Source: Vicia villosa (lineage: Eukaryota; Streptophyta; Magnoliopsida; Fabales; Fabaceae). Taken from it: 64,000 nucleotides of DNA. The notes under the pieces are model-generated. The model had not been told where the DNA came from and made no database searches. It worked only from the letters and a program-made list of their open reading frames with translations. The stretch spans positions 1 to 64,000 of the forward strand of contig NW_026706165.1 in assembly GCF_029867415.1 (NCBI RefSeq), given 5' to 3'. Numbering within the stretch: position 1 is the stretch's first letter; the number at the start of each line of letters is the position of its first letter. Below are positions 1 to 55,789 of this stretch, piece after piece. The translations under genes and the position numbers were made by a program.

Positions 1-3000
1 TTTGCAAAACCTTCAAGCCACAATGCTTCTTTCACAGCTTCAGTGAGAGCAATATATTCCGCTTCAGTGGTTGATAGAGCAACAACCTTCTGAAGAGTTG
101 CTTTCCAACTAATTGTTGTGCCAAACATAGTGAAAACATATCCAGAAATAGACTTTCTAGAATCCATACAACCTGCATAATCAGAGTCGACATATCCTTC
201 TATTACTGCTTTACTATCTTCACCCAAGGCTCCACCATAAATTAGGACTCTATTCAGAGACCCATTTATGTACCTTAAAATCCACTTCAATGCTTGCCAG
301 TGAGCCTTTCCAGGATTCGCCATGTACCTGCTTACAAGACTAACTGCGTAAGCTATGTCGGGTCTAGTACAGACCATAGCATACATCAAAGAACCAACTA
401 TATTAGCATATGGGATGCTATTCATATAGGCTATTTCGACATCAGTACTGGGACACTGATCAACACTCAGCTTGAATTGAGGGTTTGTTGGAGTCACAAC
501 TGGCTTCGAATTCGACATACCAAACTTTTCAAGAATCTTCCGTAGATATGCCTCTTGAGATAGACATAACTTCGACTTCTTTCTATCTCTTCGAATGTCA
601 ATTCCAAGAATCCTGGAAGCAGCTCCCAGATCCTTCATATCGAACTCCTTATTGAGTTCAGCCTTCACCCTCATCACATCTTCAACATTGTTGCTTGCTA
701 TGAGAATATCATCCACATAAAGTAACAAAATAACAAATGAATTACCAGGTCGAAATCTGAAGTAAACGCAATGGTCGAACTGACTTCTAATGAAACTTAT
801 GCGTGCCATGAACTTGTCGAATCTCCTATTCCACTGTCGAGGAGATTGTTTCAGCCCATACAAAGATCTCTTTAACTTGCACACATAATCTTCCTTCCCC
901 TTTTCGACATACCCTTCAGGTTGCCTCATCAGGATCGTTTCATCTAGATCACCATACAAGAACGCAGTCTTCACATCCATCTGTTCCAGTTCAAGATCGA
1001 ACTGTGCCACCATGGCAAGCAACATTCGAATGGACCTATGCTTCACAACAGGAGAAAACACATCATTGAAGTCGACACCTTCTTTCTGAGTGAAACCCCT
1101 TGCAACTAACCTTGCCTTGTATCTTTTCGACGTCACTCCTTCAATTCCTTCCTTAACTTTGAAAATCCATTTACAGCTGACTAACCTTGCCCCAACAGGT
1201 TTCTTGATCAGTTCCCAAGTATGATTATCATGAAGAGATTTCATCTCATCATCCATGGCCTTCAGCCATTCAGTCTTATTTCGACTCCTCATAACTTCCT
1301 TATAGTCTCTAGGTTCTTCGTCTAGAACCTCACTTGCAGAGATTAAGGCATAAGCTATAAGATCTGCATATCCAAGTCTTTGAGGTGGCTTGATGACTCT
1401 TCTCGACCTATCTCTCGACAATATGTAGTCATCGTCAGTTTCCTCAACTTCAGCATCTTCTGCTTCTTCTTCGACTTCATCTGGGATATGCAATTCAGCA
1501 TCAACATGCTCCACCTCAACAGGAATCTCTACCTGTTCCAGCTCTTCGTCAGATGTTTCTGTACTTCGACCAACATCATCAGTTTTCTTAAAAGCCATTT
1601 TAGCTTCATTAAAAACTACATCTCGACTGGTGATACACCTCCTGTGACCTGGCTCTAGGCACCATAGCCTATAAGCTTTGACTCCTTCAGGGTATCCCAT
1701 GAACATGCATTTCAGAGCTCTAGGTTCGACCTTGTCTTGCCTAATGTGAGCATAGGCTACGCAGCCAAATACTCTCAGTTTGTCGAGATCTGGTGGATGT
1801 CCCGACCAAACTTCTTTAGGTGTCTTCATATCTAACGCTGTCGAAGGACATCTGTTTATCAGATATGTTGCTGTCGAAACAGCCTCAGCCCAGAACACCT
1901 TTGTTAACCCCGCACTAGTCAACATGCATCTGACTCTCTCCAAAATAGTTCGATTAAACCTTTCAGCCAAACCATTTTGCTGTGGAGTACCTGCAGTAGT
2001 TCTATGCCTTGCAATACCAGAGGCAGCACAAAAACTGTCGAATGCCTCATTGCAAAATTCAAGGCCATTGTCGGTTCTCAACCTCTTGACCTTTCTGCCA
2101 GTCTGATTTTCAACCAGAGTCTTCCAACTTTTGAAATTCTCAAAAGTTTCATCCTTAGTCTTCTGGATGAATACCCATAATTTTCTGGAATAATCATCTA
2201 CTATGGATAGAAAATACCTTGCTCCTGAATGTGATGGACACCTTGCAGGCCCCCAAAGATCAGCATGGATGTAATCAAGGGATCCATGTGTTCTTTGTTT
2301 GCCTTTGTTGAACTTCACTCTGCAAGATTTTCCAAGTACACAGGGTTCACAAAACTTCAGCTTTTCGATTTTGTCTCCACCAAGCAGATTTTGTTTCCCT
2401 AATTCGACCAGACCCCTTTCACTGACATGGCCCAATCTCATGTGCCAGATTTCTGTCTTCGACAAAGGTTTCGTGGATACAACATTTGTCGAACCACTTA
2501 CAACTTCAGCCTCAAGGGTATACAAGCCTTGTTTCTTCACGCCTCTCAAGACTTCCTTCGACCCCTTCATGACTCTTAGGATGCTTTTCTCTCCTTGGAA
2601 AACATATCCTTTCTTGTCGAATTCACCAAGAGAAAGCAAATTTCTCTTCAAATCAGGAACATACCTGACTTCAGTCAACAACCTTATTGACTCATCATGG
2701 AGCTTGAATCTCACAGATCCAACACCTGCAATCTTGCAAGCCTTGTTGTTTCCCAGCAATACTGATCCACCATCTTGATCACATAATTCCTCGAACAAGT
2801 CTTTGTTTGGAGTCATGTGCCAAGTGCAACCTGAATCCATAATCCACTCCTTCTTAGAGTCACTGCTTGAAACCACAAGAACATCAGATGATTCGAAATC
2901 ATCTTGAACAATGGCAGCGTTGCCATTATCCTTACCTCCATGATATTTCAAGCGTTCAGGGCACACCTTTCTTGTGTGACCCTCCTTCTTACAATGGTAG

Positions 3001-3002
3001 CA
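1..3002 (-). CDS. pol: Copia pol, left-arm copy, cut by window edge
   Basis: Mirror image of 7853-10854. It reads from the CCHC zinc knuckle through aspartic protease (DSGC), GAG-pre-integrase, integrase and reverse transcriptase (YVDD) into the RNase H domain, and is open to position 1. The final 88 codons of the right-arm copy have no counterpart inside the window. Translations of all sub-frames match the right arm exactly, so no independent mutation is visible between the two copies. Confidence 0.85.
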
Positions 3003-3698
3003 TCAAATGCCAGATGCTTCGCCACTGTAAGTCTTCGACTGGCTTTTGCCTTTCTTCTTGTCGAACTTACCATCCTTTCGTAAGAGTTTTCCTTTAACGG
3101 CCAAACCTTCGCCAACAGTCGAAGGTTTATGCTCCTTTCGTTCATTCAAGTCCTTAGAGTACAAGGCTGATTGAACTTCTTCAAACGTCAGGGACTCCCT
3201 TCCATACAAGAGAGTTTCTTTGAAGTGAGCATGTGATCGAGGCAAAGAACACAATAGTAACAGCGCTTGATCTTTATCATCGATTTTCACATCAATATTT
3301 TCAAGATCAAGAATCAGCTTGTTGAACATATCCAACTGCTCAGCCAATACTTTGTCTTCAATCATCTTGAATGAATACAAAGCTTGCTTCAGGTAGAGTC
3401 GATTTACCAGCGATTTGGTCATGTACAAACTTTCAAGTTTCACCCATAACCCTGATGCCGTCGTCTCCTTTGATACCTGCCTGAGAACCTTATCACCAAG
3501 GCTCAACAAAATTGCGCTGTGTGCCTTCTCAATCATAGTCGTCTTCTCCGCTGCCGTTAATGCAGCATTCATGGCTGCCTCTCCCTTCAACGCTTCCAAA
3601 CAACCCTGCTGAACCAGTAGGGCTTTCATCTTCAAGCGCCACAGACCGAAATCATTCACTCCGGTGAACTTTTCAATCTCATACTTTGTTGACGGCAT
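3003..3698 (-). CDS. gag: Copia gag, left-arm copy
   Basis: Mirror image of the gag frame at 7157-7852, with the same 231-codon product and the same TGA stop just before the zinc-knuckle codons. The start is set at the ATG (3698-3696) rather than the upstream GTG, because plant copia gag proteins begin close to a conserved K-Y-E-I-E-K-F segment that follows it directly. Structural protein of the retrotransposon particle; no host role is implied. Confidence 0.85.
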   Translation of the reverse strand: MPSTKYEIEKFTGVNDFGLWRLKMKALLVQQGCLEALKGEAAMNAALTAAEKTTMIEKAHSAILLSLGDKVLRQVSKETTASGLWVKLESLYMTKSLVNRLYLKQALYSFKMIEDKVLAEQLDMFNKLILDLENIDVKIDDKDQALLLLCSLPRSHAHFKETLLYGRESLTFEEVQSALYSKDLNERKEHKPSTVGEGLAVKGKLLRKDGKFDKKKGKSQSKTYSGEASGI

Positions 3699-3723
3699 CT
3701 TCTCCACGCTCACCGCACCAATT

Positions 3724-4159
3724 TGTTGTGAAAAACGATACCAATAACAAAGTATAATAGGGAATTAGGGAAGAGAATAAGAACACAAGAATTGGTTATA
3801 ACTGCTATTCTTTCACTTTCTCTTAAAACAAGATTACAAGTTTACAAGAATAACAAATAACCTCTCTCACCCTCAATTAGGATTTGCAGCTTAGCAATGA
3901 TGAGAGACTAGTATGCTATTTATAATAAAACCTAACATACTAACTAATGGGCTTTTTCAGCAAGGCCCATAACACAAGCCAACTTAATAAATAAGCTAAC
4001 TTAACAAATTAGGGTTTAAGCACTAAAACCTAATTTAACATGCTAACAACCCTAGCATCTTCGACACAAGCATGTGAACAACCTTCGACATCATGCTTAA
4101 CCCTGTCGAACCAAGAAGCTACCCTTCGGCCATACTAGAGTTCGATCCAATATCTCACA
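3724..4159 (-). repeat. 5' LTR of left-arm copia element
   Basis: 436 bp, the reverse complement of 6696-7131, with TG...CA ends. The TATA box lies at 3917-3924 on the minus strand. Confidence 0.93.
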
Positions 4160-5414
4160 TATTCTATATCTACTTCTCTTCTAGGTTATTATTTTTTTTT
4201 ATATATTAACAACAATTGGATTTAGAGCAGGGTTGGAGCTGAAGGAAAAAAAGAGAGGAGAGAATCCACTCTCAAATTGATGTTAGTAGTTAACTTTAAG
4301 ATTATTAAATATTGTCTCTTATTTGATTAGTTATATGCAAAATCTAAAGTTTTAAGTTATAGGTAAGTCTGTATAATTTTTTAAATATCCAATATACATG
4401 ATTTTATAATTACATGTATAATAAAAATTGAAAATAAATTGAAAATATAAAAAACACAAAATTCAAAATTAATGCAAAAAGAAGTAAAATATATTTATAT
4501 TGTCTTAGATATAAGTTTGAGTGAACATAAATTCCCTTAAAAAATTCTCTACTCCGCAATTCATCCTAAAAAATTACTTATACCTCATGAAATACCTTCA
4601 TATATTATCAATGTAATTTCAAGACTATGTACTCTGGTTTAAAAATAAGTCGTGCTATTTCCATTATAGTACATCGGTTGGTATGGGTTTCATGTATATC
4701 GCTAATATTTTTAGTGGCTTGATGACACTACTACAAAATATATCTTTTTTAACACCATATTATTACGTTCTTCATGTAAACCATGGTAATAACTCATTTT
4801 TGGGTGTTTTTTTGTTGTCACGGTTCGTATTATCAAATGTGGTAAAATGTGTTAAACACTATAGAAAAGAATGCGTTAATTAACAAGATTTTATATTGGT
4901 TATTTTTTGCAGGTATCCATAGGGTATGAGCCATTGCCATCCCTAAACATAAATTTACTTGCGGCTTAGTTCGGTTTAAGACGATATATTAAAAAATTCA
5001 ATCCGAGTCAATCTAACTTAATGTGGTTTAATTTGGATCGATTTTTAAATATCCAAATTATAAATTATATTATAATTAATATTATAAAAATACTGATAAA
5101 TCATAGATTTGATATAAAAAGTTAATATTATAAAATGAGAGTGTATTGTAAAAATAAAAATAAATAGATTAAATCAAATTAATAAATATTATTAAAAAAA
5201 TAATTATCATCTAATAATAAATTTAAGTCACATATCATACTAAATTATCAATAGATTAAACCATATATAGTTCGGTTTGGTTTGGATCAATTTTAAAAAA
5301 TCAATTCGAATAAAACAGTTTTCACAAAATATCATCCAAACACATTTAATAAATTTTAGTTTTTTTTTGTGATTTTTGATTTTTGGATCAATTTACCATT
5401 TTTATTTAAGTTGG
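4160..5414. repeat. Inner flank of left arm (intron-2-type sequence), no gene
   Basis: AT-rich DNA between the copia element and the palindrome centre. About 4160-4455 is the reverse complement of sequence that also occurs in SCPL copy B intron 2 (about 52625-52910), so it is host intron. The inner part (about 4460-5414) has no counterpart in copy B; it includes CACTACTACAAAA at about 4727, resembling a CACTA terminus, and a GGGATGGCAATGG-like end near 4950. Neither could be closed into an element. Confidence 0.7.
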
Positions 5415-5463
5415 TAAATTGATCCAAGTTGGATCAAAAACCAACTTAAATAAAAATGGTAAA
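5391..5463. repeat. Nested hairpins at the palindrome centre
   Basis: The left arm ends in its own short hairpin: TTGGATCAATTTACCA (from about 5396) faces TGGTAAATTGATCCAA (ending 5427) across a short loop. The second half of that stem overlaps another stem, TTGATCCAA G TTGGATCAA, at 5419-5437. A third copy of the stem sequence sits at the start of the right arm. Such a pre-existing hairpin is the usual substrate for snap-back template switching. Confidence 0.75.
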
Positions 5464-6690
5464 TTGATCCAAAAATCAAAAATCACAAAAAAAAACTAAA
5501 ATTTATTAAATGTGTTTGGATGATATTTTGTGAAAACTGTTTTATTCGAATTGATTTTTTAAAATTGATCCAAACCAAACCGAACTATATATGGTTTAAT
5601 CTATTGATAATTTAGTATGATATGTGACTTAAATTTATTATTAGATGATAATTATTTTTTTAATAATATTTATTAATTTGATTTAATCTATTTATTTTTA
5701 TTTTTACAATACACTCTCATTTTATAATATTAACTTTTTATATCAAATCTATGATTTATCAGTATTTTTATAATATTAATTATAATATAATTTATAATTT
5801 GGATATTTAAAAATCGATCCAAATTAAACCACATTAAGTTAGATTGACTCGGATTGAATTTTTTAATATATCGTCTTAAACCGAACTAAGCCGCAAGTAA
5901 ATTTATGTTTAGGGATGGCAATGGCTCATACCCTATGGATACCTGCAAAAAATAACCAATATAAAATCTTGTTAATTAACGCATTCTTTTCTATAGTGTT
6001 TAACACATTTTACCACATTTGATAATACGAACCGTGACAACAAAAAAACACCCAAAAATGAGTTATTACCATGGTTTACATGAAGAACGTAATAATATGG
6101 TGTTAAAAAAGATATATTTTGTAGTAGTGTCATCAAGCCACTAAAAATATTAGCGATATACATGAAACCCATACCAACCGATGTACTATAATGGAAATAG
6201 CACGACTTATTTTTAAACCAGAGTACATAGTCTTGAAATTACATTGATAATATATGAAGGTATTTCATGAGGTATAAGTAATTTTTTAGGATGAATTGCG
6301 GAGTAGAGAATTTTTTAAGGGAATTTATGTTCACTCAAACTTATATCTAAGACAATATAAATATATTTTACTTCTTTTTGCATTAATTTTGAATTTTGTG
6401 TTTTTTATATTTTCAATTTATTTTCAATTTTTATTATACATGTAATTATAAAATCATGTATATTGGATATTTAAAAAATTATACAGACTTACCTATAACT
6501 TAAAACTTTAGATTTTGCATATAACTAATCAAATAAGAGACAATATTTAATAATCTTAAAGTTAACTACTAACATCAATTTGAGAGTGGATTCTCTCCTC
6601 TCTTTTTTTCCTTCAGCTCCAACCCTGCTCTAAATCCAATTGTTGTTAATATATAAAAAAAAATAATAACCTAGAAGAGAAGTAGATATA
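5441..6690. repeat. Inner flank of right arm (SCPL copy A intron 2), no gene
   Basis: Exact mirror of the left inner flank. From about 6400 to 6695 it aligns with copy B 52625-52910 and, after the copia element, the alignment resumes at 11604. This places it within intron 2 of SCPL copy A. No coding sequence was found. Confidence 0.75.
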
Positions 6691-6695
6691 GAATA

Positions 6696-7131
6696 TGTGA
6701 GATATTGGATCGAACTCTAGTATGGCCGAAGGGTAGCTTCTTGGTTCGACAGGGTTAAGCATGATGTCGAAGGTTGTTCACATGCTTGTGTCGAAGATGC
6801 TAGGGTTGTTAGCATGTTAAATTAGGTTTTAGTGCTTAAACCCTAATTTGTTAAGTTAGCTTATTTATTAAGTTGGCTTGTGTTATGGGCCTTGCTGAAA
6901 AAGCCCATTAGTTAGTATGTTAGGTTTTATTATAAATAGCATACTAGTCTCTCATCATTGCTAAGCTGCAAATCCTAATTGAGGGTGAGAGAGGTTATTT
7001 GTTATTCTTGTAAACTTGTAATCTTGTTTTAAGAGAAAGTGAAAGAATAGCAGTTATAACCAATTCTTGTGTTCTTATTCTCTTCCCTAATTCCCTATTA
7101 TACTTTGTTATTGGTATCGTTTTTCACAACA
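6696..7131 (+). repeat. 5' LTR of copia element
   Basis: 436 bp, from TGTGAGATATTGG to CACAACA. It contains a TATA box (TATAAATA, 6931-6938). It is related to the minus-strand solo LTR at 20510-20988. Confidence 0.95.
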
Positions 7132-7156
7132 AATTGGTGCGGTGAGCGTGGAGAAG

Positions 7157-7852
7157 ATGCCGTCAACAAAGTATGAGATTGAAAAGTTCACCGGAGTGAA
7201 TGATTTCGGTCTGTGGCGCTTGAAGATGAAAGCCCTACTGGTTCAGCAGGGTTGTTTGGAAGCGTTGAAGGGAGAGGCAGCCATGAATGCTGCATTAACG
7301 GCAGCGGAGAAGACGACTATGATTGAGAAGGCACACAGCGCAATTTTGTTGAGCCTTGGTGATAAGGTTCTCAGGCAGGTATCAAAGGAGACGACGGCAT
7401 CAGGGTTATGGGTGAAACTTGAAAGTTTGTACATGACCAAATCGCTGGTAAATCGACTCTACCTGAAGCAAGCTTTGTATTCATTCAAGATGATTGAAGA
7501 CAAAGTATTGGCTGAGCAGTTGGATATGTTCAACAAGCTGATTCTTGATCTTGAAAATATTGATGTGAAAATCGATGATAAAGATCAAGCGCTGTTACTA
7601 TTGTGTTCTTTGCCTCGATCACATGCTCACTTCAAAGAAACTCTCTTGTATGGAAGGGAGTCCCTGACGTTTGAAGAAGTTCAATCAGCCTTGTACTCTA
7701 AGGACTTGAATGAACGAAAGGAGCATAAACCTTCGACTGTTGGCGAAGGTTTGGCCGTTAAAGGAAAACTCTTACGAAAGGATGGTAAGTTCGACAAGAA
7801 GAAAGGCAAAAGCCAGTCGAAGACTTACAGTGGCGAAGCATCTGGCATTTGA
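7157..7852 (+). CDS. gag: Copia gag protein (231 aa), ends at an in-frame TGA
   Basis: Retrotransposon nucleocapsid/capsid precursor of the UBN2/gag-polypeptide type. The N-terminus (KYEIEKFTG, then GLWRLKMKALL) and the central helical block with LWVKLESLYMTKSL and YSFKM are characteristic of plant copia gag. The basic C-terminus (KKKGKSQSKT) ends at TGA 7850-7852. The CCHC zinc knuckle (C-Y-H-C...G-H...C) follows directly in the same frame, so the stop separates capsid from nucleocapsid and pol. ATG 7157 is preferred over GTG 7142 because the latter is only an alternative-start artefact. Confidence 0.88.
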   Translation: MPSTKYEIEKFTGVNDFGLWRLKMKALLVQQGCLEALKGEAAMNAALTAAEKTTMIEKAHSAILLSLGDKVLRQVSKETTASGLWVKLESLYMTKSLVNRLYLKQALYSFKMIEDKVLAEQLDMFNKLILDLENIDVKIDDKDQALLLLCSLPRSHAHFKETLLYGRESLTFEEVQSALYSKDLNERKEHKPSTVGEGLAVKGKLLRKDGKFDKKKGKSQSKTYSGEASGI

Positions 7853-10800
7853 TGCTACCATTGTAAGAAGGAGGGTCACACAAGAAAGGTGTGCCCTGAA
7901 CGCTTGAAATATCATGGAGGTAAGGATAATGGCAACGCTGCCATTGTTCAAGATGATTTCGAATCATCTGATGTTCTTGTGGTTTCAAGCAGTGACTCTA
8001 AGAAGGAGTGGATTATGGATTCAGGTTGCACTTGGCACATGACTCCAAACAAAGACTTGTTCGAGGAATTATGTGATCAAGATGGTGGATCAGTATTGCT
8101 GGGAAACAACAAGGCTTGCAAGATTGCAGGTGTTGGATCTGTGAGATTCAAGCTCCATGATGAGTCAATAAGGTTGTTGACTGAAGTCAGGTATGTTCCT
8201 GATTTGAAGAGAAATTTGCTTTCTCTTGGTGAATTCGACAAGAAAGGATATGTTTTCCAAGGAGAGAAAAGCATCCTAAGAGTCATGAAGGGGTCGAAGG
8301 AAGTCTTGAGAGGCGTGAAGAAACAAGGCTTGTATACCCTTGAGGCTGAAGTTGTAAGTGGTTCGACAAATGTTGTATCCACGAAACCTTTGTCGAAGAC
8401 AGAAATCTGGCACATGAGATTGGGCCATGTCAGTGAAAGGGGTCTGGTCGAATTAGGGAAACAAAATCTGCTTGGTGGAGACAAAATCGAAAAGCTGAAG
8501 TTTTGTGAACCCTGTGTACTTGGAAAATCTTGCAGAGTGAAGTTCAACAAAGGCAAACAAAGAACACATGGATCCCTTGATTACATCCATGCTGATCTTT
8601 GGGGGCCTGCAAGGTGTCCATCACATTCAGGAGCAAGGTATTTTCTATCCATAGTAGATGATTATTCCAGAAAATTATGGGTATTCATCCAGAAGACTAA
8701 GGATGAAACTTTTGAGAATTTCAAAAGTTGGAAGACTCTGGTTGAAAATCAGACTGGCAGAAAGGTCAAGAGGTTGAGAACCGACAATGGCCTTGAATTT
8801 TGCAATGAGGCATTCGACAGTTTTTGTGCTGCCTCTGGTATTGCAAGGCATAGAACTACTGCAGGTACTCCACAGCAAAATGGTTTGGCTGAAAGGTTTA
8901 ATCGAACTATTTTGGAGAGAGTCAGATGCATGTTGACTAGTGCGGGGTTAACAAAGGTGTTCTGGGCTGAGGCTGTTTCGACAGCAACATATCTGATAAA
9001 CAGATGTCCTTCGACAGCGTTAGATATGAAGACACCTAAAGAAGTTTGGTCGGGACATCCACCAGATCTCGACAAACTGAGAGTATTTGGCTGCGTAGCC
9101 TATGCTCACATTAGGCAAGACAAGGTCGAACCTAGAGCTCTGAAATGCATGTTCATGGGATACCCTGAAGGAGTCAAAGCTTATAGGCTATGGTGCCTAG
9201 AGCCAGGTCACAGGAGGTGTATCACCAGTCGAGATGTAGTTTTTAATGAAGCTAAAATGGCTTTTAAGAAAACTGATGATGTTGGTCGAAGTACAGAAAC
9301 ATCTGACGAAGAGCTGGAACAGGTAGAGATTCCTGTTGAGGTGGAGCATGTTGATGCTGAATTGCATATCCCAGATGAAGTCGAAGAAGAAGCAGAAGAT
9401 GCTGAAGTTGAGGAAACTGACGATGACTACATATTGTCGAGAGATAGGTCGAGAAGAGTCATCAAGCCACCTCAAAGACTTGGATATGCAGATCTTATAG
9501 CTTATGCCTTAATCTCTGCAAGTGAGGTTCTAGACGAAGAACCTAGAGACTATAAGGAAGTTATGAGGAGTCGAAATAAGACTGAATGGCTGAAGGCCAT
9601 GGATGATGAGATGAAATCTCTTCATGATAATCATACTTGGGAACTGATCAAGAAACCTGTTGGGGCAAGGTTAGTCAGCTGTAAATGGATTTTCAAAGTT
9701 AAGGAAGGAATTGAAGGAGTGACGTCGAAAAGATACAAGGCAAGGTTAGTTGCAAGGGGTTTCACTCAGAAAGAAGGTGTCGACTTCAATGATGTGTTTT
9801 CTCCTGTTGTGAAGCATAGGTCCATTCGAATGTTGCTTGCCATGGTGGCACAGTTCGATCTTGAACTGGAACAGATGGATGTGAAGACTGCGTTCTTGTA
9901 TGGTGATCTAGATGAAACGATCCTGATGAGGCAACCTGAAGGGTATGTCGAAAAGGGGAAGGAAGATTATGTGTGCAAGTTAAAGAGATCTTTGTATGGG
10001 CTGAAACAATCTCCTCGACAGTGGAATAGGAGATTCGACAAGTTCATGGCACGCATAAGTTTCATTAGAAGTCAGTTCGACCATTGCGTTTACTTCAGAT
10101 TTCGACCTGGTAATTCATTTGTTATTTTGTTACTTTATGTGGATGATATTCTCATAGCAAGCAACAATGTTGAAGATGTGATGAGGGTGAAGGCTGAACT
10201 CAATAAGGAGTTCGATATGAAGGATCTGGGAGCTGCTTCCAGGATTCTTGGAATTGACATTCGAAGAGATAGAAAGAAGTCGAAGTTATGTCTATCTCAA
10301 GAGGCATATCTACGGAAGATTCTTGAAAAGTTTGGTATGTCGAATTCGAAGCCAGTTGTGACTCCAACAAACCCTCAATTCAAGCTGAGTGTTGATCAGT
10401 GTCCCAGTACTGATGTCGAAATAGCCTATATGAATAGCATCCCATATGCTAATATAGTTGGTTCTTTGATGTATGCTATGGTCTGTACTAGACCCGACAT
10501 AGCTTACGCAGTTAGTCTTGTAAGCAGGTACATGGCGAATCCTGGAAAGGCTCACTGGCAAGCATTGAAGTGGATTTTAAGGTACATAAATGGGTCTCTG
10601 AATAGAGTCCTAATTTATGGTGGAGCCTTGGGTGAAGATAGTAAAGCAGTAATAGAAGGATATGTCGACTCTGATTATGCAGGTTGTATGGATTCTAGAA
10701 AGTCTATTTCTGGATATGTTTTCACTATGTTTGGCACAACAATTAGTTGGAAAGCAACTCTTCAGAAGGTTGTTGCTCTATCAACCACTGAAGCGGAATA

Positions 10801-11119
10801 TATTGCTCTCACTGAAGCTGTGAAAGAAGCATTGTGGCTTGAAGGTTTTGCAAAGGAGCTGAAACTTCAAGGTCGAAGTATCACTGTTAAATGTGATAGT
10901 CAGAGTGCAATACACCTGTCGAAGAATTCAGCCTATCATGAGCGAACTAAGCACATTGATGTGAGGCTGCATTTCGTCAGAGGAGTAATCGAGCGTGGAG
11001 AAGTCCAAGTGCTGAAGGTTTCGACTGAAGACAATGCTGCTGATATGATCACCAAGACATTGCCGAGTTGCAAGTTTTTCCACTGTATGCAGTTGATAAA
11101 GCTGCATGAAGAAAGCTAG
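7853..11119 (+). CDS. pol: Copia pol polyprotein (protease-integrase-RT-RNase H)
   Basis: A 1,088-codon frame continuous with gag apart from the TGA. Order: CCHC zinc knuckle at the start; aspartic protease with WIMDSGC; GAG-pre-integrase with HMRLGH and CEPCVLGK (H-H-C-C); integrase core with DLWGP, FLSIVDDYSR, TDNGLEF and TPQQNGLAER; reverse transcriptase with MDVKTAFLYGDL, SLYGLKQSPRQW and LLYVDDILIA; RNase H with GYVDSDYAG, TEAEYIAL and the C-terminal TKHIDVRLHF. All catalytic motifs of an active copia element are present. The first ATG after the stop is at 7889, so pol would need readthrough or internal initiation. Related in layout to plant copia lineages that encode a single gag-pol frame. 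Confidence 0.93.
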   Translation, partial: CYHCKKEGHTRKVCPERLKYHGGKDNGNAAIVQDDFESSDVLVVSSSDSKKEWIMDSGCTWHMTPNKDLFEELCDQDGGSVLLGNNKACKIAGVGSVRFKLHDESIRLLTEVRYVPDLKRNLLSLGEFDKKGYVFQGEKSILRVMKGSKEVLRGVKKQGLYTLEAEVVSGSTNVVSTKPLSKTEIWHMRLGHVSERGLVELGKQNLLGGDKIEKLKFCEPCVLGKSCRVKFNKGKQRTHGSLDYIHADLWGPARCPSHSGARYFLSIVDDYSRKLWVFIQKTKDETFENFKSWKTLVENQTGRKVKRLRTDNGLEFCNEAFDSFCAASGIARHRTTAGTPQQNGLAERFNRTILERVRCMLTSAGLTKVFWAEAVSTATYLINRCPSTALDMKTPKEVWSGHPPDLDKLRVFGCVAYAHIRQDKVEPRALKCMFMGYPEGVKAYRLWCLEPGHRRCITSRDVVFNEAKMAFKKTDDVGRSTETSDEELEQVEIPVEVEHVDAELHIPDEVEEEAEDAEVEETDDDYILSRDRSRRVIKPPQRLGYADLIAYALISASEVLDEEPRDYKEVMRSRNKTEWLKAMDDEMKSLHDNHTWELIKKPVGARLVSCKWIFKVKEGIEGVTSKRYKARLVARGFTQKEGVDFNDVFSPVVKHRSIRMLLAMVAQFDLELEQMDVKTAFLYGDLDETILMRQPEGYVEKGKEDYVCKLKRSLYGLKQSPRQWNRRFDKFMARISFIRSQFDHCVYFRFRPGNSFVILLLYVDDILIASNNVEDVMRVKAELNKEFDMKDLGAASRILGIDIRRDRKKSKLCLSQEAYLRKILEKFGMSNSKPVVTPTNPQFKLSVDQCPSTDVEIAYMNSIPYANIVGSLMYAMVCTRPDIAYAVSLVSRYMANPGKAHWQALKWILRYINGSLNRVLIYGGALGEDSKAVIEGYVDSDYAGCMDSRKSISGYVFTMFGTTISWKATLQKVVALSTTEAEYIALTEAVKEALWLEGFAKELKLQGRSITVKCDSQSAIHLSKNSAYHERTKHIDVRLHFVRGVIERGEVQVLKVSTEDNAADMITKTLPSCKFFHCMQLIKLHEES

Positions 11120-11162
11120 TGTGTTCCCTTGATGTTGTAGAGTTAGATCCAAGGTGGAGATT

Positions 11163-11598
11163 TGTGAGATATTGGATCGAACTCTAGTATGGCCGAAGGG
11201 TAGCTTCTTGGTTCGACAGGGTTAAGCATGATGTCGAAGGTTGTTCACATGCTTGTGTCGAAGATGCTAGGGTTGTTAGCATGTTAAATTAGGTTTTAGT
11301 GCTTAAACCCTAATTTGTTAAGTTAGCTTATTTATTAAGTTGGCTTGTGTTATGGGCCTTGCTGAAAAAGCCCATTAGTTAGTATGTTAGGTTTTATTAT
11401 AAATAGCATACTAGTCTCTCATCATTGCTAAGCTGCAAATCCTAATTGAGGGTGAGAGAGGTTATTTGTTATTCTTGTAAACTTGTAATCTTGTTTTAAG
11501 AGAAAGTGAAAGAATAGCAGTTATAACCAATTCTTGTGTTCTTATTCTCTTCCCTAATTCCCTATTATACTTTGTTATTGGTATCGTTTTTCACAACA
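11163..11598 (+). repeat. 3' LTR of copia element
   Basis: 436 bp and, by eye, identical to the 5' LTR. It ends 148 bp upstream of SCPL copy A exon 3 and is on the same strand. Confidence 0.95.
11398..11405 (+). promoter_or_regulatory. TATA box of copia 3' LTR
   Basis: TATAAATA inside the 3' LTR. By LTR logic transcription would begin roughly 25-35 bp downstream and run rightward into SCPL copy A exon 3 at 11747. The same motif in the 5' LTR is at 6931-6938. Promoter activity is inferred, not shown. Confidence 0.55.
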
Positions 11599-11746
11599 GA
11601 ATATAATTTAAAGGTTAGAATTATGGCAGAACAATGGGTAGTAGAGAAAAAGCTGTAAAGGATCATTCCGTCAATTTTGTACTTTAGCTATTTTGTGTGT
11701 GTTGGGTTTAGCTTGTTATTATAGTTGACCATGCTGAAACTAATAG

Positions 11747-23160
<11,414 letters not shown>

Positions 23161-24195
23161 TCCACACTTAGATGGCATAACTATGAGATGTTTAATTTTT
23201 AATAATTTTGTTTTCTAAAAATATATATTTTGTAATATTTGAACAATGTGTACTAAGGAAGCAATGCAAATATGTAATGTAAGTCATGATTTTGTATATG
23301 AGACATGCTTGATAAAAAATTAATTTGTAGCTTATAATGATTTCTATAATAAAAAACTAAAATATAGTTAAATTGCTTTTTCTTTAAAGTTGAAAATAGT
23401 TTATAAACATATCATATAATGTGTATTGGTCAAAAAATACATGTGTGTGTGATATCTCTATAGGAGTAGGGGATACTCAAAGGTCTTAGTAGATTTATAA
23501 TAGTTAGAGATGGCTCATGACGGTGAGAGGTCATGTATGGTGGTGTTTATGGGGGTATGAGAGAGCCATCTCACGTGAGGTGAATGACTATGTATGTAAG
23601 CATCGCGTTTATGGTGTAACTAAGTTCTGTATATATTATCATATGTCCTCTCTCCGGTTAGGGGAAAAGTATTTGTAGGGACTTTGGGCCCTAGGGTTTA
23701 GGAAACCCTTATAAGCAAGCAGCAACTGCTTCCCTTGACTAAGGGAGACTGTTGACTACCTACTTTCAGAAGAGTCGTGGTATGACTCTTTCTTATAAGA
23801 TTAAAGGGACGAAACATTACCATGAACCTCATATGTCCCAAGGGCGAGCCCTCGTGTTCTACGAAGATGTCGCGCCGGGTGATATCTTGCTAGGTGAGAA
23901 TCCTCATGTCACCCCTGTTAGGGACTCTCACAAATATAATATTACACTATCTCTCAAACACAAGATGGTGAAATGCTTTATGGCTTCTTTTGGGTTCCGT
24001 CCCGCATTCTAGGGCGAACCTATTGATAAGAAGCGTGTTAAATATTTTGGGATGTGGCCCCTTTACATATGAGGAAATTCCCTCAACTTGGGGGCGAATC
24101 TCTCTAATGAAGGTCGCCTTTTCAAGTGGGAGGTGAATCCCTCAGCTAAAAGCAACCTATTTAATGAGAAGCGAGTTCCTCTGCTTGGTGGGAAT
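23161..24195. other. 3' flank of copy A, then retrotransposon-type sequence
   Basis: About 23161-23840 aligns with the copy B 3' flank (61944-62660), showing that the tandem duplication runs well beyond the stop codon. From about 23840 the copies diverge: here there are imperfect repeats of the form GGGCGAA(C/T)CT...TAATGA(A/G)AAG up to 24195, just upstream of an LTR start, which resembles the 3' untranslated part of a Ty3/gypsy element. No convincing gene. Confidence 0.6.
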
Positions 24196-25337
24196 TGTTG
24201 CACCCCAAAATTTGTCCATCCTTTTTTAACCTGGAAAAGATTTTGCATCATATTCATAAACATCATATTTAGGTTATGGATCAATACATTCATTCATGTC
24301 ATGGATATTGCTTAAGAGTTGATAAGGAGAGGAGCTTTTTCTTAAGAAAATTTCTTGATTAAATGGAGAGGATCTGAGGGCTCATTATATGACATCATCT
24401 CATTAAAATTCTCTTGAAATTATGGTTCCACTACCTTCAGTTCAAGGCATGGATTAGAGGATACAAGTTACAGGTTCATCTAGTCTTCCCAAATCAAGGT
24501 TTTTTGACCAAAGTCAATGCAATTGACTTTTTGGTCAACATTTTAATCATGAGATGATTTTTATAGTGTGAAGTGACGTGGGGTCTATGTTGAGCTTTTC
24601 AATTGATTTCATTGATTGGAGATTGATTGAAATTGAATTGGCAGTTAACTGATCAAAAAATTCATCTAAGGATGAAAAAGTCAAACAGTTGACTTTTGGA
24701 GTATTTTGGTCAAAGTCAAAGTCAAATCTCATATTATTGATGTTTGGTGAATATTATTCAAGAAAATATCATGGAAAATAGTTAAAATAAAAAATAACCA
24801 AAATTGCCAAAAATAGAAGTTGGTTAGAATGCAAAACTTGCCAAAAGGGGAAACTTCTATACTTGGAACTTTTTGAAGAAAAGTTTGAAAATGGCCGGTC
24901 AACTGACTTCAGACCTATTTTACATGTGGATAAGGCAATTTTTGGAGAAAAATTTAACACGAAAGTTATTCCTCTCATGGAGGAGAACAACTTTGTAGTT
25001 GCAAATTTTTCCAATTTAAGTTTGGATCAAAAGATACAAGAGCTTGAAGTTGGAAGATTTAAACTTGTACAAGTCAAGATGCCAGGCAATATTCTTGGCA
25101 CGCGCAGGCAAATGATCGAACATGTGGCGTGTCACTTTCAAGTCCAATTTTAGAGAGTTAGAGGCACCTTTTAAATTCAATTCCAATGCAAACCTGTTAT
25201 ATTACATGTCCTCTATTTAATGATCTAAGAACCATAATATTTGGTTGAATATATAGAGAGATATGGGACTTCAAATTTGCATGTTCAGGGGATGGTGCTT
25301 GACAAAGTTCTAGGCCAGAGATTGAGTCTTGCGTGTG

Positions 25338-25356
25338 TGATAGAAGGGTATAATAG

Positions 25357-25388
<32 letters not shown>

Positions 25389-25609
25389 TATTAGTATTAA
25401 TATTAATATTATTATTATTGGGCTCTAATTGTATATGGGCTTTTAGTTTTATTATCCATTATGGATATTATATAATGTAGTGTCTTTGACACATTTGAGG
25501 TACCAATGAAATGAAAAAGTCTTTAATTTTCTTAGTTTATTTTACTTGTCTATTTTATTTCTCTTAGCTTTTCTTTAGTTTGTTAGGGTTCCTAATTAAC
25601 TTCCTAACA
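25338..25609 (+). repeat. 5' LTR of compact LTR element
   Basis: 272 bp, with an ATT/TTA microsatellite at about 25360-25420. The 3' partner is 27216-27478. Confidence 0.9.
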
Positions 25610-25642
25610 TTGGTGCTTTCATCCTTGAACTTCAATCCTTCC

Positions 25643-25993
25643 ATGACAAATCCATACTATCAATCTTTCACTCCTCCATATGTTAGTGTTCCATCACCAT
25701 TTTATTATCACCCCATTTCTCCTTATTACTCTACTGTCACAACTATACCACCTACATCATCTAACCCATACACATCATATCCACCTTCACCTAACCCATA
25801 CCAACCAGAACCCCAAAATTCCAATTTACAATCAGAAACATTTTACAAAGATCTGGAAACTCTGAAACAATATTTGATTGAAACTCATGAGTTATCAAAC
25901 AAATATAGAGAAGAGTTGAAAGAACAAATTCAAAATATTTCTGATTCCTTCAAAAAAACACAAAAAAATGGAAAGAGAGATATGTTGGGCTGA
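25643..25993 (+). CDS. Short ORF of compact LTR element (116 aa), gag-like position
   Basis: First ATG after the LTR and primer-site region. The N-terminal half is rich in Pro, Ser and Tyr (for example PYYQSFTPPYVSVPSP); the C-terminal half is a charged, probably coiled-coil helix (LETLKQYLIETHELSNKYREEL, residues about 70-105). The layout suggests the start of a gag, but I recognise no gag signature. It ends at TGA 25991-25993; the next ORF is in another frame. Function unknown. Confidence 0.5.
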   Translation: MTNPYYQSFTPPYVSVPSPFYYHPISPYYSTVTTIPPTSSNPYTSYPPSPNPYQPEPQNSNLQSETFYKDLETLKQYLIETHELSNKYREELKEQIQNISDSFKKTQKNGKRDMLG

Positions 25994-26040
25994 AAACTAC
26001 AAAAAAACCTTTAGAAAAAGAAGAGAAAGTAGCATCTCCA

Positions 26041-26637
26041 GTGACGTTGCTGGCTCCGATGACAACCCCGACGGCTTCTCCAACAAGCATCACGGCGGTA
26101 TCTCCATCTAGAACTCCGACGAAATTTCCGGCGTCTTCTCCGGCGAAATTTCCGGCATCTTCTCCGGCGGATCTACCACCATATCTGTTACCGGAACCCA
26201 CAGATCTGCATTCAGAACCACTGCAACCAACTCCGGCGAGTATTCCGGCGGCATCTGCGGAAAGAATTCCGACGACTTTTCCGAAGGTATATCTGGCATC
26301 ACTTCCGGTGATAGTTCAGACAGATTCATCGTCAAAAAACAGAACAGCGTCACCTACAAAAACAACTCTCTCACCGGAAAAGAGAATATTATCTCGGAAG
26401 AAAACCACAATGTTGCCACTACAGCCTAAACCATTGAATATGTTTCAATCTACTATTGACTGTATAAAGGTGAGAGCTTTACATTTGAAATCATTGTTTG
26501 ATAACAAAACAAAGATATGTTTTAAACTTCCGGTGTCGGCGCCGCCACCAAAGCCACCGGAACTGTCACCACCACTCTCACCACAAACACCATTTATCAG
26601 CCACCACCGACCACCGCCGGAACCACCACCATTTTAG
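26041..26637 (+). CDS. Pro/Ser/Thr-rich ORF of compact LTR element (198 aa)
   Basis: Starts 47 bp after the previous ORF in a different frame. It is built of degenerate short repeats around P-T/A-S-P (FPASSPAKFPASSPADLPP) and ends in a proline tract (PPPKPPELSPPLSPQTP). GC content and periodic CCGGCG motifs differ from the surrounding AT-rich DNA, so it may be a captured host exon for a cell-wall-like or linker protein. Whether it is translated is unknown. The codon periodicity also creates an open minus frame (26108-26353), which I treat as a shadow. Confidence 0.45.
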   Translation: MTLLAPMTTPTASPTSITAVSPSRTPTKFPASSPAKFPASSPADLPPYLLPEPTDLHSEPLQPTPASIPAASAERIPTTFPKVYLASLPVIVQTDSSSKNRTASPTKTTLSPEKRILSRKKTTMLPLQPKPLNMFQSTIDCIKVRALHLKSLFDNKTKICFKLPVSAPPPKPPELSPPLSPQTPFISHHRPPPEPPPF

Positions 26638-27215
26638 TTGCTTCTATCATTGTAATTTTTAATTAGTTTCGTTAGAAAAAAAAAGAAGAAGAGCAAGAAG
26701 GGAAACAGAAAGAAGAAAAGGGAAAGAGAAAAAGGAAACGTGAGAGAGATGAAAATGGAAAAAAAAATGAGGGGAAAAGAAAAAAAAGTGAAAAGTAATA
26801 TGAAAACATGCTAGCTGTCCACTCTCCATTGTCCTCCAATTATGTTAGTTGTCTAGTGAATTTTTTATGCATGCTAGCGCCTAGTTGTGTCCACTGTGAA
26901 GAGTCTCTCGGTATTCATCAGTCACCAAGTCAATTTATTTAAGGTGACAACTTCTTTACCCATCCTAAAAAGTTGGGTAACCTACATTCCACCAATCACA
27001 TTGCAACATTTAATTTTATCTTATTTAATTATTTATTAAATAGTATACTTTTTTGTTATTTCCAAAGTATTTTACACTAAAGGTAACTCTACCCAACTTT
27101 TTGTGATGGGTAGATAAGAATTCACCTTTATTTAATCATTCAACACTTGTCCCATTCAACAATTTTATTTTATTTACGAACCTTGAGGACAAGGTTCAAG
27201 TGAACCCCGCGGCAA

Positions 27216-27478
27216 TGATAGAAGGGTATAATAGTATTTATTATTATTATTATTTATTAGTATTAATATTAATATTATTATTATTATTGGGCTCTAATTG
27301 TATATGGGCTTTTAGTTTTATTATCCATTATGAATATTATATAATGTAGTGTCTTTGACACATTTGAGGTACCAATGAAATGAAAAAGTCTTTAATTTTC
27401 TTAGTTTATTTTACTTGTCTATTTTATTTCTCTTAGCTTTTCTTTAGTTTGTTAGGGTTCCTAATTAACTTCTTAACA
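27216..27478 (+). repeat. 3' LTR of compact LTR element
   Basis: 263 bp, the same sequence as 25338-25609 apart from microsatellite length and a few substitutions. Confidence 0.9.
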
Positions 27479-28330
27479 ATGTGCGCCCTGGACAAGGGTG
27501 TCTCACCATGTTTGCATGCATGTTTGAATAACTTCCATGACTCATTCCAATAACCTCCAAACATAGAATCTTCTCTATCCTGTGTCCTCTTTACATTAAT
27601 CCAAGGATCAAATTAATCGAGTAGGAGACGAACAAGTTAGGATGCTTTAAAATGAGTAACTTGAAATGGAATCTGGACGATATCATCGGGCAATGCATTC
27701 ACGTGGAGAAGTCCGCAACATGGCATGTGTGGTATACACTATCAGCATGTAAAGAAAAAGGGAAAGCTTACCATATGTACACAACCCTTGTATGCTAAGT
27801 TTGCTGAGAAAGATATGTTACACTACTCTCCACCATAACAAATAATGCACCTCACACTATATAAAACTCAAACCTTCACAAATCTATTTCCACGATTCAT
27901 TTTCCATTTTCTTTTCTCAGTTTTAAACATCCACTCTTTCTTCTCTCTCATCTCTCTCTCCACCATCAGCAACCCTAACAAACTCTTAACAAACTTTGCA
28001 ACTACTACCCTAACTGAAACATCTTCAATCTTCATCTACAATCACAAAACGTCTTCAACAACCAATCACAATCTTCACCACCTCCACTGAAAAGAGTCTT
28101 TACCATTGCAAGGAATCATCATCTTCATCTTAGCTTAATGATCACCATGGATCCCTGAGTTTATATCTCATAGATTCCTTCTACTTCAATCTTTCTTGCA
28201 TCGCCACCATCATCAACATCATCGAGAGTACGTAGCTGGTTGAGTTTTCTTTGAAGTTCTTCATTCAAGATTTAAACAAGTACGTGCTCTGAACTTCTTA
28301 GCATATTAGCAATATGCGAATAGGGGTCAT

Positions 28331-29930
28331 ACATGTAATAAATTAATGTGTTAGGACCATTATTTAATTAGCCAAATTAAAGTGATCTATTTAATGTAAA
28401 GTTTATGGCTAAGGATGTAATTCTCATGAAAAATATGGTGTAGATATCAAAAGTCTTATTTCTATTTTTTGTGATGGGTAAAATTGGAATAAGAAACCTT
28501 GAATAATCATGACCCTTCATGGAAGGGCATGAGATTCTAAACTTTAATAAACACGACTCTTCATGAAAGAGCATGTGATTCTTATAAATAAGGGGTTATG
28601 GTCTCCAATTGCAGACACTACTAGAAAAATATCATAGAATATTTATTCTCTTTATTCCATTGGAAGAGAAACTAAGGAATTAAAGAATCTACAATTGGAA
28701 GGTCATTATCCTATCAAGAACATTTTCTCATTAATATTTCATGGATATTAAAGGTACGCTTCCGCTTAATATTTAATCATGAATTGAGTATGGATGAATA
28801 AAGTTTTGATTAATTAAGAAAATTTCCAACAAATAGGTCATACGCATCTTGAATATACTCGGTGTTGTTTGATTCATTTGCTTGAAATCTTTGACTCTTG
28901 AACTTGACTCAGTTTGTATGAATTAATCGTTGTTTGGATGCTTAAGTTGCGTGCTTGAGTTCTATGTAGCACAGGGATAATGTTGGGGTAGATATCTTGC
29001 ATTTTCATGGAAGTGTTAGAAGTTAGGGTTTAATTGTGGTATTCGATTAGCGCATTAGAGCGAGTTTTAGTGGAAATTAATGGCAGATTCAGAATCAGGG
29101 GGAGAATCTGAGTCGAACGGTACCGGTCTTTTAAATTTATGGAAAATTCATATGGCTCCGGTAGGGCTTTCGCCAAAGAAAATGACCGGAAGTCATCTCC
29201 AGCCGCCAGTCTATTTCCTTGCGTTTTATTCCATTTAGCTGAGGTGGCGTGCATTGATTGGCTCATTCTCCCAACCTTTTGGCATTTTGCCCTTTATTCA
29301 ATCATTGGATCTTGACGTGACATGTGATAATTAGTTCAATTCTTTTGTTTGTCTTATTCGCTTAAGTGAAATCATGTCCAATTGATGTTGGTTCACGTGT
29401 ATGATACGTTGCTTCCTTATAATAAAACCATACAATATAATAATATAATACACATACTGATGGAAAATGAATGATATTGAAATAATAAAATGGAAAGAGT
29501 GACATAAATTGCAGTCTAGGCCATGGATTTGAATGGGCCTTTACGCTTTTGTTTTCTCACCTCCCTGAAGAGGCCCACGCGCCATTTACAAAAAGAATTA
29601 CTTCATTTCTATTTTACTAAGGCACCCCCTGTTGGGCAGCTTTTGCATTATATGTTTAAAATAGATTTTCTCTTACCTTTTAATTGATAATCCTTTTTGA
29701 CTCAAATAAAAAAATGTAAAAATAGGTTTTAGATACTTTTGTGTGTTTAGATATTTTAGGTATTTTTTATGAATTTCTATCATTTGGTTTGGTAATTTTA
29801 ATTGAGACTTTCTTTAAATATGTTAAAATAACCCTTTGATTTAGTACCCTTTGGAATTTGATTCGATTAAATGCCTTAAAAATATTCTTTCTCCAATTTT
29901 CGGTGTGAATTCAAAGGAGAGGTATATGGT
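28331..29930. other. Intergenic repeat-rich DNA, no gene recognised
   Basis: AT-rich sequence with a TATAAATAAGG at about 28585 and a TGTTAGGACC that could be an LTR start near 28350. No coding domain or paired LTR was found. Short minus ORFs at 28377-28574 and 29030-29266 have no recognisable motif. Confidence 0.4.
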
Positions 29931-31618
29931 ACTGTAACATCCCGATTTTTATTAATTATATTAGTAATTATATATTATTTGGTGTTTTTAATAATTATTT
30001 GCTTAATTTAGTCATTTGTGATGTTTATTGAAATTTTTGCGTTTTGGGATGATTTAGTCGGTATTAGTTCGGGATATGCCTTCGATTCTTCTTGCCCCTT
30101 GTTTACGTTCAGAATCAAAGTTTGGGATCGGATGTTCTGAGCCTGAAGGTGTCTGACTAATTGCTCGAAATCCATTTGGACTGAAGTAAACATCAAGAGA
30201 TGATGAGATACCTGTTGTGAGAAACCTGCTATGCGATGTTATGAATGCAGGTGCAATGTTTTCAAGGATCTATAGGAAATTTAGTTTGCGACGTTAGAAA
30301 ATGATTGGTTGCGTCTTTGTCTGAAGAATTCTGAATTTCGTCTTTGAACATCCTTCTTTGAGAATCGAGCTCACCATATCGAGTGGGTCATCGCCTCTGA
30401 TTTGGGATACCTATGAATTTGAAGGTATATGGCTAGAGGAAAATAAATCATCTTGCCCCTTGATAGGTACAGCGTCTCTGAATTGGAAGGTATGTGGCGA
30501 GAGGAAAGTAAATCCTCTTGCCCCTTGACAATAGTTCAGTCCTTGATAAGAGCACCTGAAATTGTGCGCCATAAATTCCTAAGATCCTTGAAAGGGTTAG
30601 TTAAATCATGTATGCGTATGATGTCATGATGTCATGATGTTATGTAATGCATCAGGCAAAGTGTAAGATAGTAAAGACAAACAATTCCTTTAACAAAACC
30701 TGCAAGGACACAAAGGTTAGTAGCAAACACAAACAAGTCACACAAGTGCCATTAGGTTTAAAGGCTTGCTTGAAGTTCGTAGGTAAGTACCCTCCCCACT
30801 GAAGTTTAGTTGGTTCAACCTGTCCTATATAAAGATCGGGTTCTAGGGAGCTCATATCATTGACCATTCTCGAAGGCGCTTATCTCGGTTCGGCGATCGA
30901 ATCACCAACCGAGAAGATCCTAAAAGTCCAGTCCACATGAGTGTAGCTTCGAGTATCAACCAACTTCAGTCGAAACCAAAGCCAGCCACCTCTCTACTTT
31001 CTAATAGGCCAAAGTCAAGTTCCACTAGGGTTCTAGGGGCAAATTAATGCTTGATGACACCACGCAGCAGCCAAGTGTTTCCTCAAGTCGGATCCCAAGG
31101 AACACCAGGACAAACAAATGTGTCACACTAACGATGGCCACCATATCAACCACATCAGTATACGCTGTGCAGTCTCCTTGGTCTCATGCCATTTACCTAA
31201 GGTTCTCAGATCCGGGTTAGGATCTTTCACACAAAGCTCCTTTTCTTTTCTTTTTTTTATTTATTTCATAATTTTTTTGTATTTTACTTAGCATTTTAAA
31301 ATGAGTGAAAGAAAAAAATCAAATAATTGTAAAGATAAATAGCAAAAATTTAAACTAATAATAATGATAATCCTCTTAAAATTAATAATCGAACAAAAAA
31401 TCATAAGCTATATGTGAAATGGACTGAAGATCTCGAAAATGGAACAGATGGGTCAGATGACTGGGCTCAAGCACCTTCTAACCTTAAACCTCATCTTAAC
31501 TCAGGGTATTTTATAAGAGGGTGGGTTTGATAATAAGAATGTCAAACCCCATGACTCTTAATTTTGGTCCTTAATAAATTAAAAGACGTAGATTTGATCG
31601 GGTAAATTTTGGGGTATG
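29931..31618. mobile_element. LTR-retrotransposon fragments, class uncertain
   Basis: TGTAACATCCCGATTTTTAT at about 29935 resembles a legume LTR start. A degenerate repeat built on GAATTTGAAGGTATATGGC...CTTGCCCCTTGA appears two or three times between 30060 and 30535. A minus-strand LTR start (complement of TGTCATACCCCAAAATTTAC) lies at 31600-31619. No ORF with a retroviral domain remains. Confidence 0.45.
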
Positions 31619-33557
31619 ACATTGGTCAGTGGTAGAGTCAAAAGGAGATTCAGGTTGGGCCCCATGCAACGTTGAACAGCCAGTGAGAATAGGAGAGAGG
31701 ATTGGCCGTTGTTGACTGACCAATCGGAGTGCTTGGAAAAGCCACGCATGCGCATAGATTGGTCTCCTTTACTATTCATCATCTTCATCATTTAATTAGC
31801 TACGAATTTGAAGCGTTTTAGCTACGGTTTCCTGCATCTAAACCCGTAGCAATTTTTGCAAAATTAAAGCTCATAGAAAACACGTTAAACCTGCGAACCA
31901 AAAGCCCAGATCCACATAAAAATAAGTGCTGAGTTTGAATCCGGGGCTCGTTTGATCCGAAGCTACCTGCAAACGTGAACACGAAGGAAGAGAGATATCT
32001 TGCCCTAACAGTGGCAAACTAGTAATCTCGCGTTAAAACTAATTCATGACGGTTCCAAACGTTCGCAGATATCAAGATGAATGCGAATATGCAAGCAAAT
32101 ATCATTCATAATACGTAAACTATTGAGAACAAAACGTAAGAAAAAAAAACGCAAACCGTGATCAGCTCTTGCAAGTTCCAGCGGTTGCTATTGATGAAGA
32201 TACTTGGGAGGTATTCCTATAGGCCCTTGAATGCTGAATGAACGCCTGGTTCCACTCGAAACTTGCTAGAGAAAACTCTTTATCGTGCCCTAGTCTTGAA
32301 GACTTCTTTTCACGTGAAACCCTTTGTTTTCTCCCTTTTTTGCTGTTCTTGAAGCTATGAGTTCGTCAATCCTTATGTTGCACTCCTAGTAGTATATATA
32401 GAGAGTGATTTAGGTCAAGGATGGGCTTGGGTATCAAGTCTTTTAAAGAAAAGGAATTTTTCTTCAAAAATATATAAAAACTCTTTCTATTTCAAGCCAA
32501 TCTCTCCCCCATATTACTTATCACATTTTGGACCCTCATGGGGAATTATTTGGGCCTTCCATATGGTTAGAATATGAACTCATACTTTATTTCATTTATT
32601 TTGTGATTTTATTGAAATTATTTTTCATTTAAATGAATAAGAATTCAAATAAATCAAATAAATGGCACAAAAATGGGAAATCAAATTTATGGGCCTTTAA
32701 TGCACTCATGATCATGTGTCAAAACTCAAACTTAGGCCCATTAGTCAAAAAACTTAAAATTCATCACTTTGGTTTTCATGCATTTTCTCAAAATAGCTCA
32801 ACTTTAGCAAACCATAACTCCTTCAATATTTGTCATATAAAAGTGTTCTAGGACTTTTTGGAAACCTTAAAGAGTCTTCTAAAGGCTCCTTTTGGTTTCA
32901 TCTCAATTGAGTCTACCATGTTCAAGTTATGAACTTTTGAAAAAGATAACTTTTTGTTGACCTTTTGGAGGACCTGTAATGTTTTGACTCATAACTCCCA
33001 AATGGTGCATTTTTAGACTTGGCATGTGAGAGACAAAATTGTAGAGAATTCAATTTCCTTCAAATTGAGCTTTGGATGGAAAATTTCTGATGTTCCATGC
33101 GGAAGTTATGGCTGGTCAAAGTTCAGTTGACTTTCTTCTAGAAAACCCTAATTTAGAAACTCAGGTTTTTGATGATTCTGGAGCTTTTCTTGATGAATCA
33201 TGATCAATCCTTGATCAAATGATGAATTATACTTCATAATGAGGATGTTGACCAAAAATCAGAAGTTTTGACTGTACTTTGACCACAGTTGACTTTTAAG
33301 TCGAACTAGTCGACTATTGACTTTCTGAGCAACTGAGTGACCAATCCTTTGAATTGAGGCCTGAATTTTGTCATGGACATAGTTTGGAACATCATAAGCC
33401 ATATGAGATGTCTTGGAGCTTTTGATCCATTGATTTTCCCTTAAAACAACAAAAGCCTAGTTCCTTGAACATTGTTTAGGAGGGATGTCTTTGAGCCATG
33501 TGTCTTGATTTGAATTTGAAGGAGAGAAATAGCATGGGCAAATTTTGGGGTATGACA
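31619..33557 (-). mobile_element. Ty3/gypsy LTR fragment, minus strand
   Basis: Reading leftward from 33557 the sequence begins TGTCATACCCCAAAATTTGC, the same terminus as the 3.7-kb solo LTR at 37254. A TATA-like stretch at about 32393-32402 sits about 1.16 kb from that end, matching the spacing in the 37254 LTR. It is abruptly followed at 31619 by a second LTR start on the same strand, which suggests nested insertion. Confidence 0.6.

Positions 33558-36914: not shown

Positions 36915-36963
<49 letters not shown>

Positions 36964-53389: not shown

Positions 53390-53462
<73 letters not shown>

Positions 53463-55735: not shown

Positions 55736-55789
<54 letters not shown>

Follow-up and report, generated by a model that had tools for sequence, protein, structure and literature searches.

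A mirrored copia retrotransposon in a nearly spacerless palindrome of Vicia villosa: probable sequencing fold-back, less likely a young inverted duplication

The first 10,854 bp of the window (the whole 64,000-bp stretch of Vicia villosa contig NW_026706165.1 that was analysed) form a mirror image around a single axis, and the question raised by this locus is whether the mirror copy exists in the vetch chromosome or was created on the way from DNA molecule to contig. The preliminary description posed the choice as a young fold-back duplication versus a read or assembly fold-back; this framing is upheld, and our analysis favours the second option. The left arm (1–5415, minus strand), which represents the copied or folded-back side and is cut by the window edge, is the exact reverse complement of the right arm (5440–10,854, plus strand), which is colinear with a locus encoding a serine carboxypeptidase-like protein (SCPL copy A). 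The arms match base for base, as had been proposed, over 5415 bp with 0 mismatches, while the best of the other 1999 of the 2000 fold axes tested reached a match of 29.6% over 5000 bp. Since position 1 pairs with position 10,854, the left end of the palindrome and its left flank are situated outside the window; position 10,854 is merely where the window edge cuts the left arm, and no terminus of the palindrome is demonstrated there.

The arms are separated by a spacer of 24 bp (AAATTGATCCAAGTTGGATCAAAA, 5416–5439), not 26 bp as first described, and this spacer is itself nearly symmetric. It contains a perfect inner palindrome of 9 + 1 + 9 bases, TTGATCCAA-G-TTGGATCAA, at 5419–5437, and the sole asymmetry about the inner centre consists of AAA on the left versus AA on the right, between this core and the arms. 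This patch lies at most 12 bp from the axis, where a lone random change arising afterwards would land with a chance of about 0.002, so the patch is more likely part of the joining event itself. When folded as DNA, the minus strand of 5413–5442 (GGTTTTTGATCCAACTTGGATCAATTTACC) forms an 8-bp stem with a 3-nt loop at −6.3 kcal/mol (z = −4.41; 0 of 200 shuffles were as stable), and seven comparable centres, defined by an arm of at least 8, a spacer of at most 3 and at least 3 G/C in the stem, were identified in the 52,401 bp at 11,600–64,000. A short inverted repeat is present at the palindrome centre and may have existed there in the parental sequence before folding; an argument from this hairpin is partly circular, because any palindrome is symmetric at its centre. 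In choosing between the readings we therefore lean on the position of the mismatch patch instead of on a pre-existing hairpin. The comparison of the SCPL copies yielded no homologue of 5440–6417 in copy B, and the matches of this segment to 43,228–46,308 were rejected as homology, being AT-rich, low-complexity matches of 58–84% identity. A scan of 5400–5460 for bacterial promoters and terminators gave 0 matches, as did Rfam at gathering cut-offs.

Most of each arm is occupied by a copia retrotransposon. The right insertion spans 6696–11,598 (4903 bp), of which 4159 bp are located inside the right arm. Its 5′ LTR (6696–7131) and 3′ LTR (11,163–11,598, beyond the visible arm), with boundaries that we set ourselves, are 436 bp each and show 0 differences, and the element is flanked on both sides by the target duplication GAATA (6691–6695 and 11,599–11,603, plus strand). 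The gag frame (7091–7852), in which Pfam recognized the copia gag domain Retrotran_gag_2, is closed by an in-frame stop ahead of the zinc knuckle, and this stop divides it from the pol frame (7853–11,119, plus strand; 1088 aa), which carries gag_pre-integrs, rve, SH3-like and RVT_2 domains. Integrase preceding reverse transcriptase, LTRs of the TG...CA type, the 5-bp target duplication and an empty site in SCPL copy B place the element in the Ty1/copia group. The protein collection includes a close relative, P0003, whose frame is open where the palindrome's element has the stop; this match, with 96% identity over 62% of the query and 76 member sequences, points to a multi-copy copia family, and no counterpart of the pol frame was found in viral contigs. 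Both elements have their 5′ LTRs inside the palindrome and run outward, the pol frame of the left element being located at 3–3002 on the minus strand, and the palindrome axis is situated outside the element, 1268 bp away. In the left arm, the mirrored 5′ LTR (3724–4159, minus strand) is accompanied by the inner target duplication TATTC at 4160–4164. The left element is only partial in the window, as the mirror of the 744 distal bases and of the outer target duplication would fall to the left of position 1. The proposal that both arms carry the element in the same target site is accordingly borne out on the inner side, the outer left duplication being beyond the window. The related claim of one insertion mirrored, rather than two, is supported: the arms match past the element up to the axis and the inner target duplication is mirrored too, for which reasons two independent insertions were rejected.

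The surroundings of the right arm were clarified by comparison with the second SCPL copy of the window. The protein P0121, SCPL11 (serine carboxypeptidase-like 11) isoform X1 of Vicia villosa, matches copy B (44,708–61,940, plus strand) with 471 of 471 residues in 14 exact stretches, while P0149, SCPL11 isoform X3 of the same species, matches copy A from exon 3 onward (11,731–23,157, plus strand; Pfam Peptidase_S10 in pieces) with 342 of 342 residues in 11 exact stretches. The segments 6417–6696 and 11,600–12,079 on the two sides of the insertion correspond to 52,628–52,905 (86.9%) and 52,901–53,381 (88.4%) in copy B, where the copia element is lacking and the empty site lies at about 52,901–52,905. 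Because copy B carries this empty site, the right arm together with copy A represents the ancestral order and the left arm the duplicate. The annotated copy B protein splices exon 2 (exons 1 and 2 at 44,708–44,863 and 44,938–45,090) to exon 3 at 53,043, and exon 3 of copy A starts at about 11,736–11,747, with the annotated acceptor at about 11,736. The insertion is therefore located upstream of exon 3 in what corresponds to intron 2 of the paralogue, in agreement with the initial view that it lies in a plant gene intron; a position in the promoter or 5′ UTR, considered because an ATG follows the element, was dropped, as copy B has exons 1 and 2 upstream and exon 2 joined to exon 3.

Exons 1 and 2 of copy A were not found in the window: residues 1–103 of P0121, encoded by these exons, match only 44,708–45,090 at E below 1, barring a trivial match of residues 102–119. 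It had been suggested that a fold-back error would also explain this loss, an explanation that is not secure, given that the homology between copies A and B already breaks at 6417/52,628, about 1 kb before the axis, and that the annotated copy A protein P0149 likewise begins just before exon 3, at 11,731. Copy A may thus have been truncated at its 5′ side independently, since homology stops at this boundary and exons 1 and 2 match copy B only.

Several other features were observed in the two SCPL copies (A, 6417–23,809; B, 52,628–62,626), which share common blocks at about 79–90% DNA identity and whose 5′ homology boundary is without evident cause. Intron 2 of copy B contains a LINE (46,355–52,518, minus strand) with a 17-bp target duplication (CCTGGAAGAATGAGTAG), encoding a frame of 1278 aa (endonuclease, RVT_1, zf-RVT) and an upstream frame of 759 aa without a Pfam match; this LINE was rejected as the cause of the homology break, its target duplication ending at 52,535, 93 bp from the break. 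A second, decayed LINE in copy A (12,246–17,462, minus strand) is 29–57% identical in pieces to that of copy B and is probably an independent insertion. An intron of copy A also includes a run of TA dinucleotides of 128 bases (18,000–18,127), the longest such run in copy B (52,601–62,700) being 62 bases and situated elsewhere in the gene. Additionally, a 277-bp segment at 20,597–20,873 matches a portion of the copia LTR at 82% identity, on the strand opposite to the right element, and may be a remnant of an old LTR inside copy A; broken copia pol pieces, 32–46% identical to the palindrome's element, are located at 57,757–59,502 (minus strand) in the copy B locus.

The palindrome is probably the product of one sequenced molecule whose end folded back as a hairpin and which, read on both strands, entered the contig, rather than of a real duplication. 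This reading is favoured because the near-absent spacer, the flawless arms and the mismatch patch beside the axis fit it, and the zero differences between the arms favour it since two strands of the same molecule necessarily agree. The opposite-strand copy is joined after 24 bp, within the 200 bp by which foldback artefacts are defined, although here the junction is seen in an assembly. The break in a sheared duplex would have lain immediately to the left of the present axis, leaving a 3′ overhang with a short, imperfect inverted repeat. While the library ends were being repaired, this overhang would have folded on itself with a stem of 8–9 bp and a loop of about 3 nt, its terminal ACC paired with GGT over a small mismatched patch, so that all further sequence came from the partner strand. 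Once sealed, the fold would have replaced the adapter at one end of the molecule, so that the sequencer would have read one strand, passed round the hairpin and read the other, and the palindromic consensus read would have extended the contig into a mirror copy. We infer both the snap-back at the library stage and the assembler's use of such a read. The flawless arms, the very small loop and the lone mismatch patch just inside the arms would all follow from the ACC/GGT fold, which could have formed in the cell as well as in the library tube.

We infer that the window is part of an unplaced contig of the published Vvill1.0 assembly. That assembly was built with the IPA assembler; its input was Sequel II HiFi data, processed under the default settings of SMRT Link 9.0, from a library with an average insert of 16.7 kb after selection above 12 kb and at 43× HiFi coverage, and it is reported with 1888 scaffolds, a contig N50 of 604,665 bp and pseudomolecules totalling 1.38 Gb (PMC10659084). 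Because fragments were selected above 12 kb, full read-through of a hairpin-ended molecule predicts a left arm of at least 12 kb, beyond the reach of the window. Further considerations count against a sequencing fold-back. At 43× coverage, a lone aberrant read should usually be outvoted, and foldbacks, recorded at 0.55–0.6% for Nanopore genomic DNA, were virtually absent from the PacBio HiFi Revio and Mas-Seq data of the three PacBio samples surveyed (PMC12870357). Because of the near absence of foldbacks from that HiFi Revio survey, and because the analysis covered the assembled sequence of the window, we rate this reading as no more than probable. A phrase search for papers on palindromic contigs, in which at least two of six phrases were required, matched none.

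The main alternative, a genuine young inverted duplication, is unlikely. It holds that a broken chromosome end folded at the short inverted repeat and primed its own synthesis, that the new arm became connected to other DNA beyond the left edge of the window and that the copia element was mirrored in the process. At mutation rates of 7 × 10⁻⁹ and 1.3 × 10⁻⁸ per site per year, the zero differences over the arm make a genomic duplication younger than about 21,000–40,000 years (95% bound), so that a perfect 5.4-kb arm is allowed within that age, and the identical LTRs are consistent with a recent copia insertion. The left flank, where the new arm would have been joined, lies beyond the window. 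In yeast mre11 and sae2 mutants, short-loop hairpins seed foldback inversions, with a hotspot composed of a 3-nt loop and a 15-bp stem, but working Mre11–Sae2 suppresses such short-loop events, the median loop in cells proficient for both being 35.5 nt (PMC7467729). Also against a genuine duplication, interrupted or perfect palindromes raise yeast rearrangement rates more than 10,000-fold (PMC8053094), and the mismatch patch was kept in vetch, whereas all the analysed sae2-deficient yeast clones had corrected theirs (PMC10622511). The spacer sizes differ as well: the spacers of a breast-cancer line, with at least three sizes tabulated, include 467, 657 and 2286 bp (PMC4057610), and the 24 bp found here fall short of the disomic spacer, at least hundreds of bp long, that characterizes the human constitutional type.

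Long-read assemblers are expected to rely on overlaps far longer than the inverted overlap of only about 19 bp that would have pre-existed at this axis. An assembly-graph error, in which the assembler would have linked the two strands of a single region by way of the short inverted repeat or of repetitive copia copies, with no fold-back molecule involved, is consequently highly improbable, since the axis also lies away from the element; in its favour, the protein collection contains multiple members of this copia family, and heterozygosity in the sequenced plant is high (3.1%; PMC10659084).

The functional proposals attached to the palindrome were also evaluated. With the promoter situated in the LTR and both elements running away from the axis, copia transcripts initiated from their own LTRs would not cross it, and only transcription reading through from outside could produce a hairpin RNA. 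The visible arms contain no SCPL exons, the first coding stretch of copy A being found at 11,731, and the suggestion of siRNA directed against copy A is unsupported, as exon 3 lies outside these arms and the elements point away from the axis; the siRNA idea as a whole has little support. It is quite unlikely that the locus combines a real, almost spacerless palindrome of at least 10.8 kb, formed less than about 40,000 years ago by snap-back at an imperfect 9-bp repeat, with a mirrored young copia element upstream of SCPL exon 3, such that any crossing transcript would yield more than 5 kb of double-stranded RNA against the copia family, in the manner of a naturally occurring Mu killer aimed at a retrotransposon. 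If the palindrome is real, a plant chromosome would be tolerating a long palindrome with almost no spacer, which might also give rise to retrotransposon siRNA. If it is a sequencing fold-back, the locus shows that molecules ending in a hairpin can produce false palindromes of several kilobases in a public plant assembly built from HiFi reads; here, the retrotransposon would have acquired a spurious second copy next to a truncated gene model.

Compared with known systems, the vetch palindrome resembles the maize Mu killer in being an inverted duplication derived from a transposable element, for which a hairpin RNA produced by read-through from a flanking gene was proposed; Mu killer is backed by silencing evidence (PMC3440606), whereas in vetch a silencing role would be hypothetical and both elements point away from the axis. 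With the human inverted duplications containing a disomic spacer, it shares inverted arms and a short inverted sequence at the turn, but the 21 of 21 sequenced human junctions have spacers of 766–70,466 bp versus 24 bp in vetch (PMC3907307). The hairpin-mediated foldback inversions of yeast share a central short inverted repeat with a very small loop, flanked by long inverted arms; their short-loop forms appear mainly upon loss of Mre11, Sae2 or Ku (PMC7467729, PMC10622511), and the sae2-deficient clones had their repeat mismatches corrected (PMC10622511), whereas the patch remains in vetch. The favoured counterpart is found among foldback artefact reads, as detected by Breakinator (PMC12870357) or attributed to missed SMRTbell adaptors (PMC6218980). 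The vetch palindrome differs from these in being seen in an assembly and not in a read, and virtually none were reported from HiFi Revio (PMC12870357); it resembles them in that the second half follows on the opposite strand within 200 bp, and we also count as a likeness that, in more than half of these reads, no searchable sequence lies between the halves (PMC12870357, PMC6218980).
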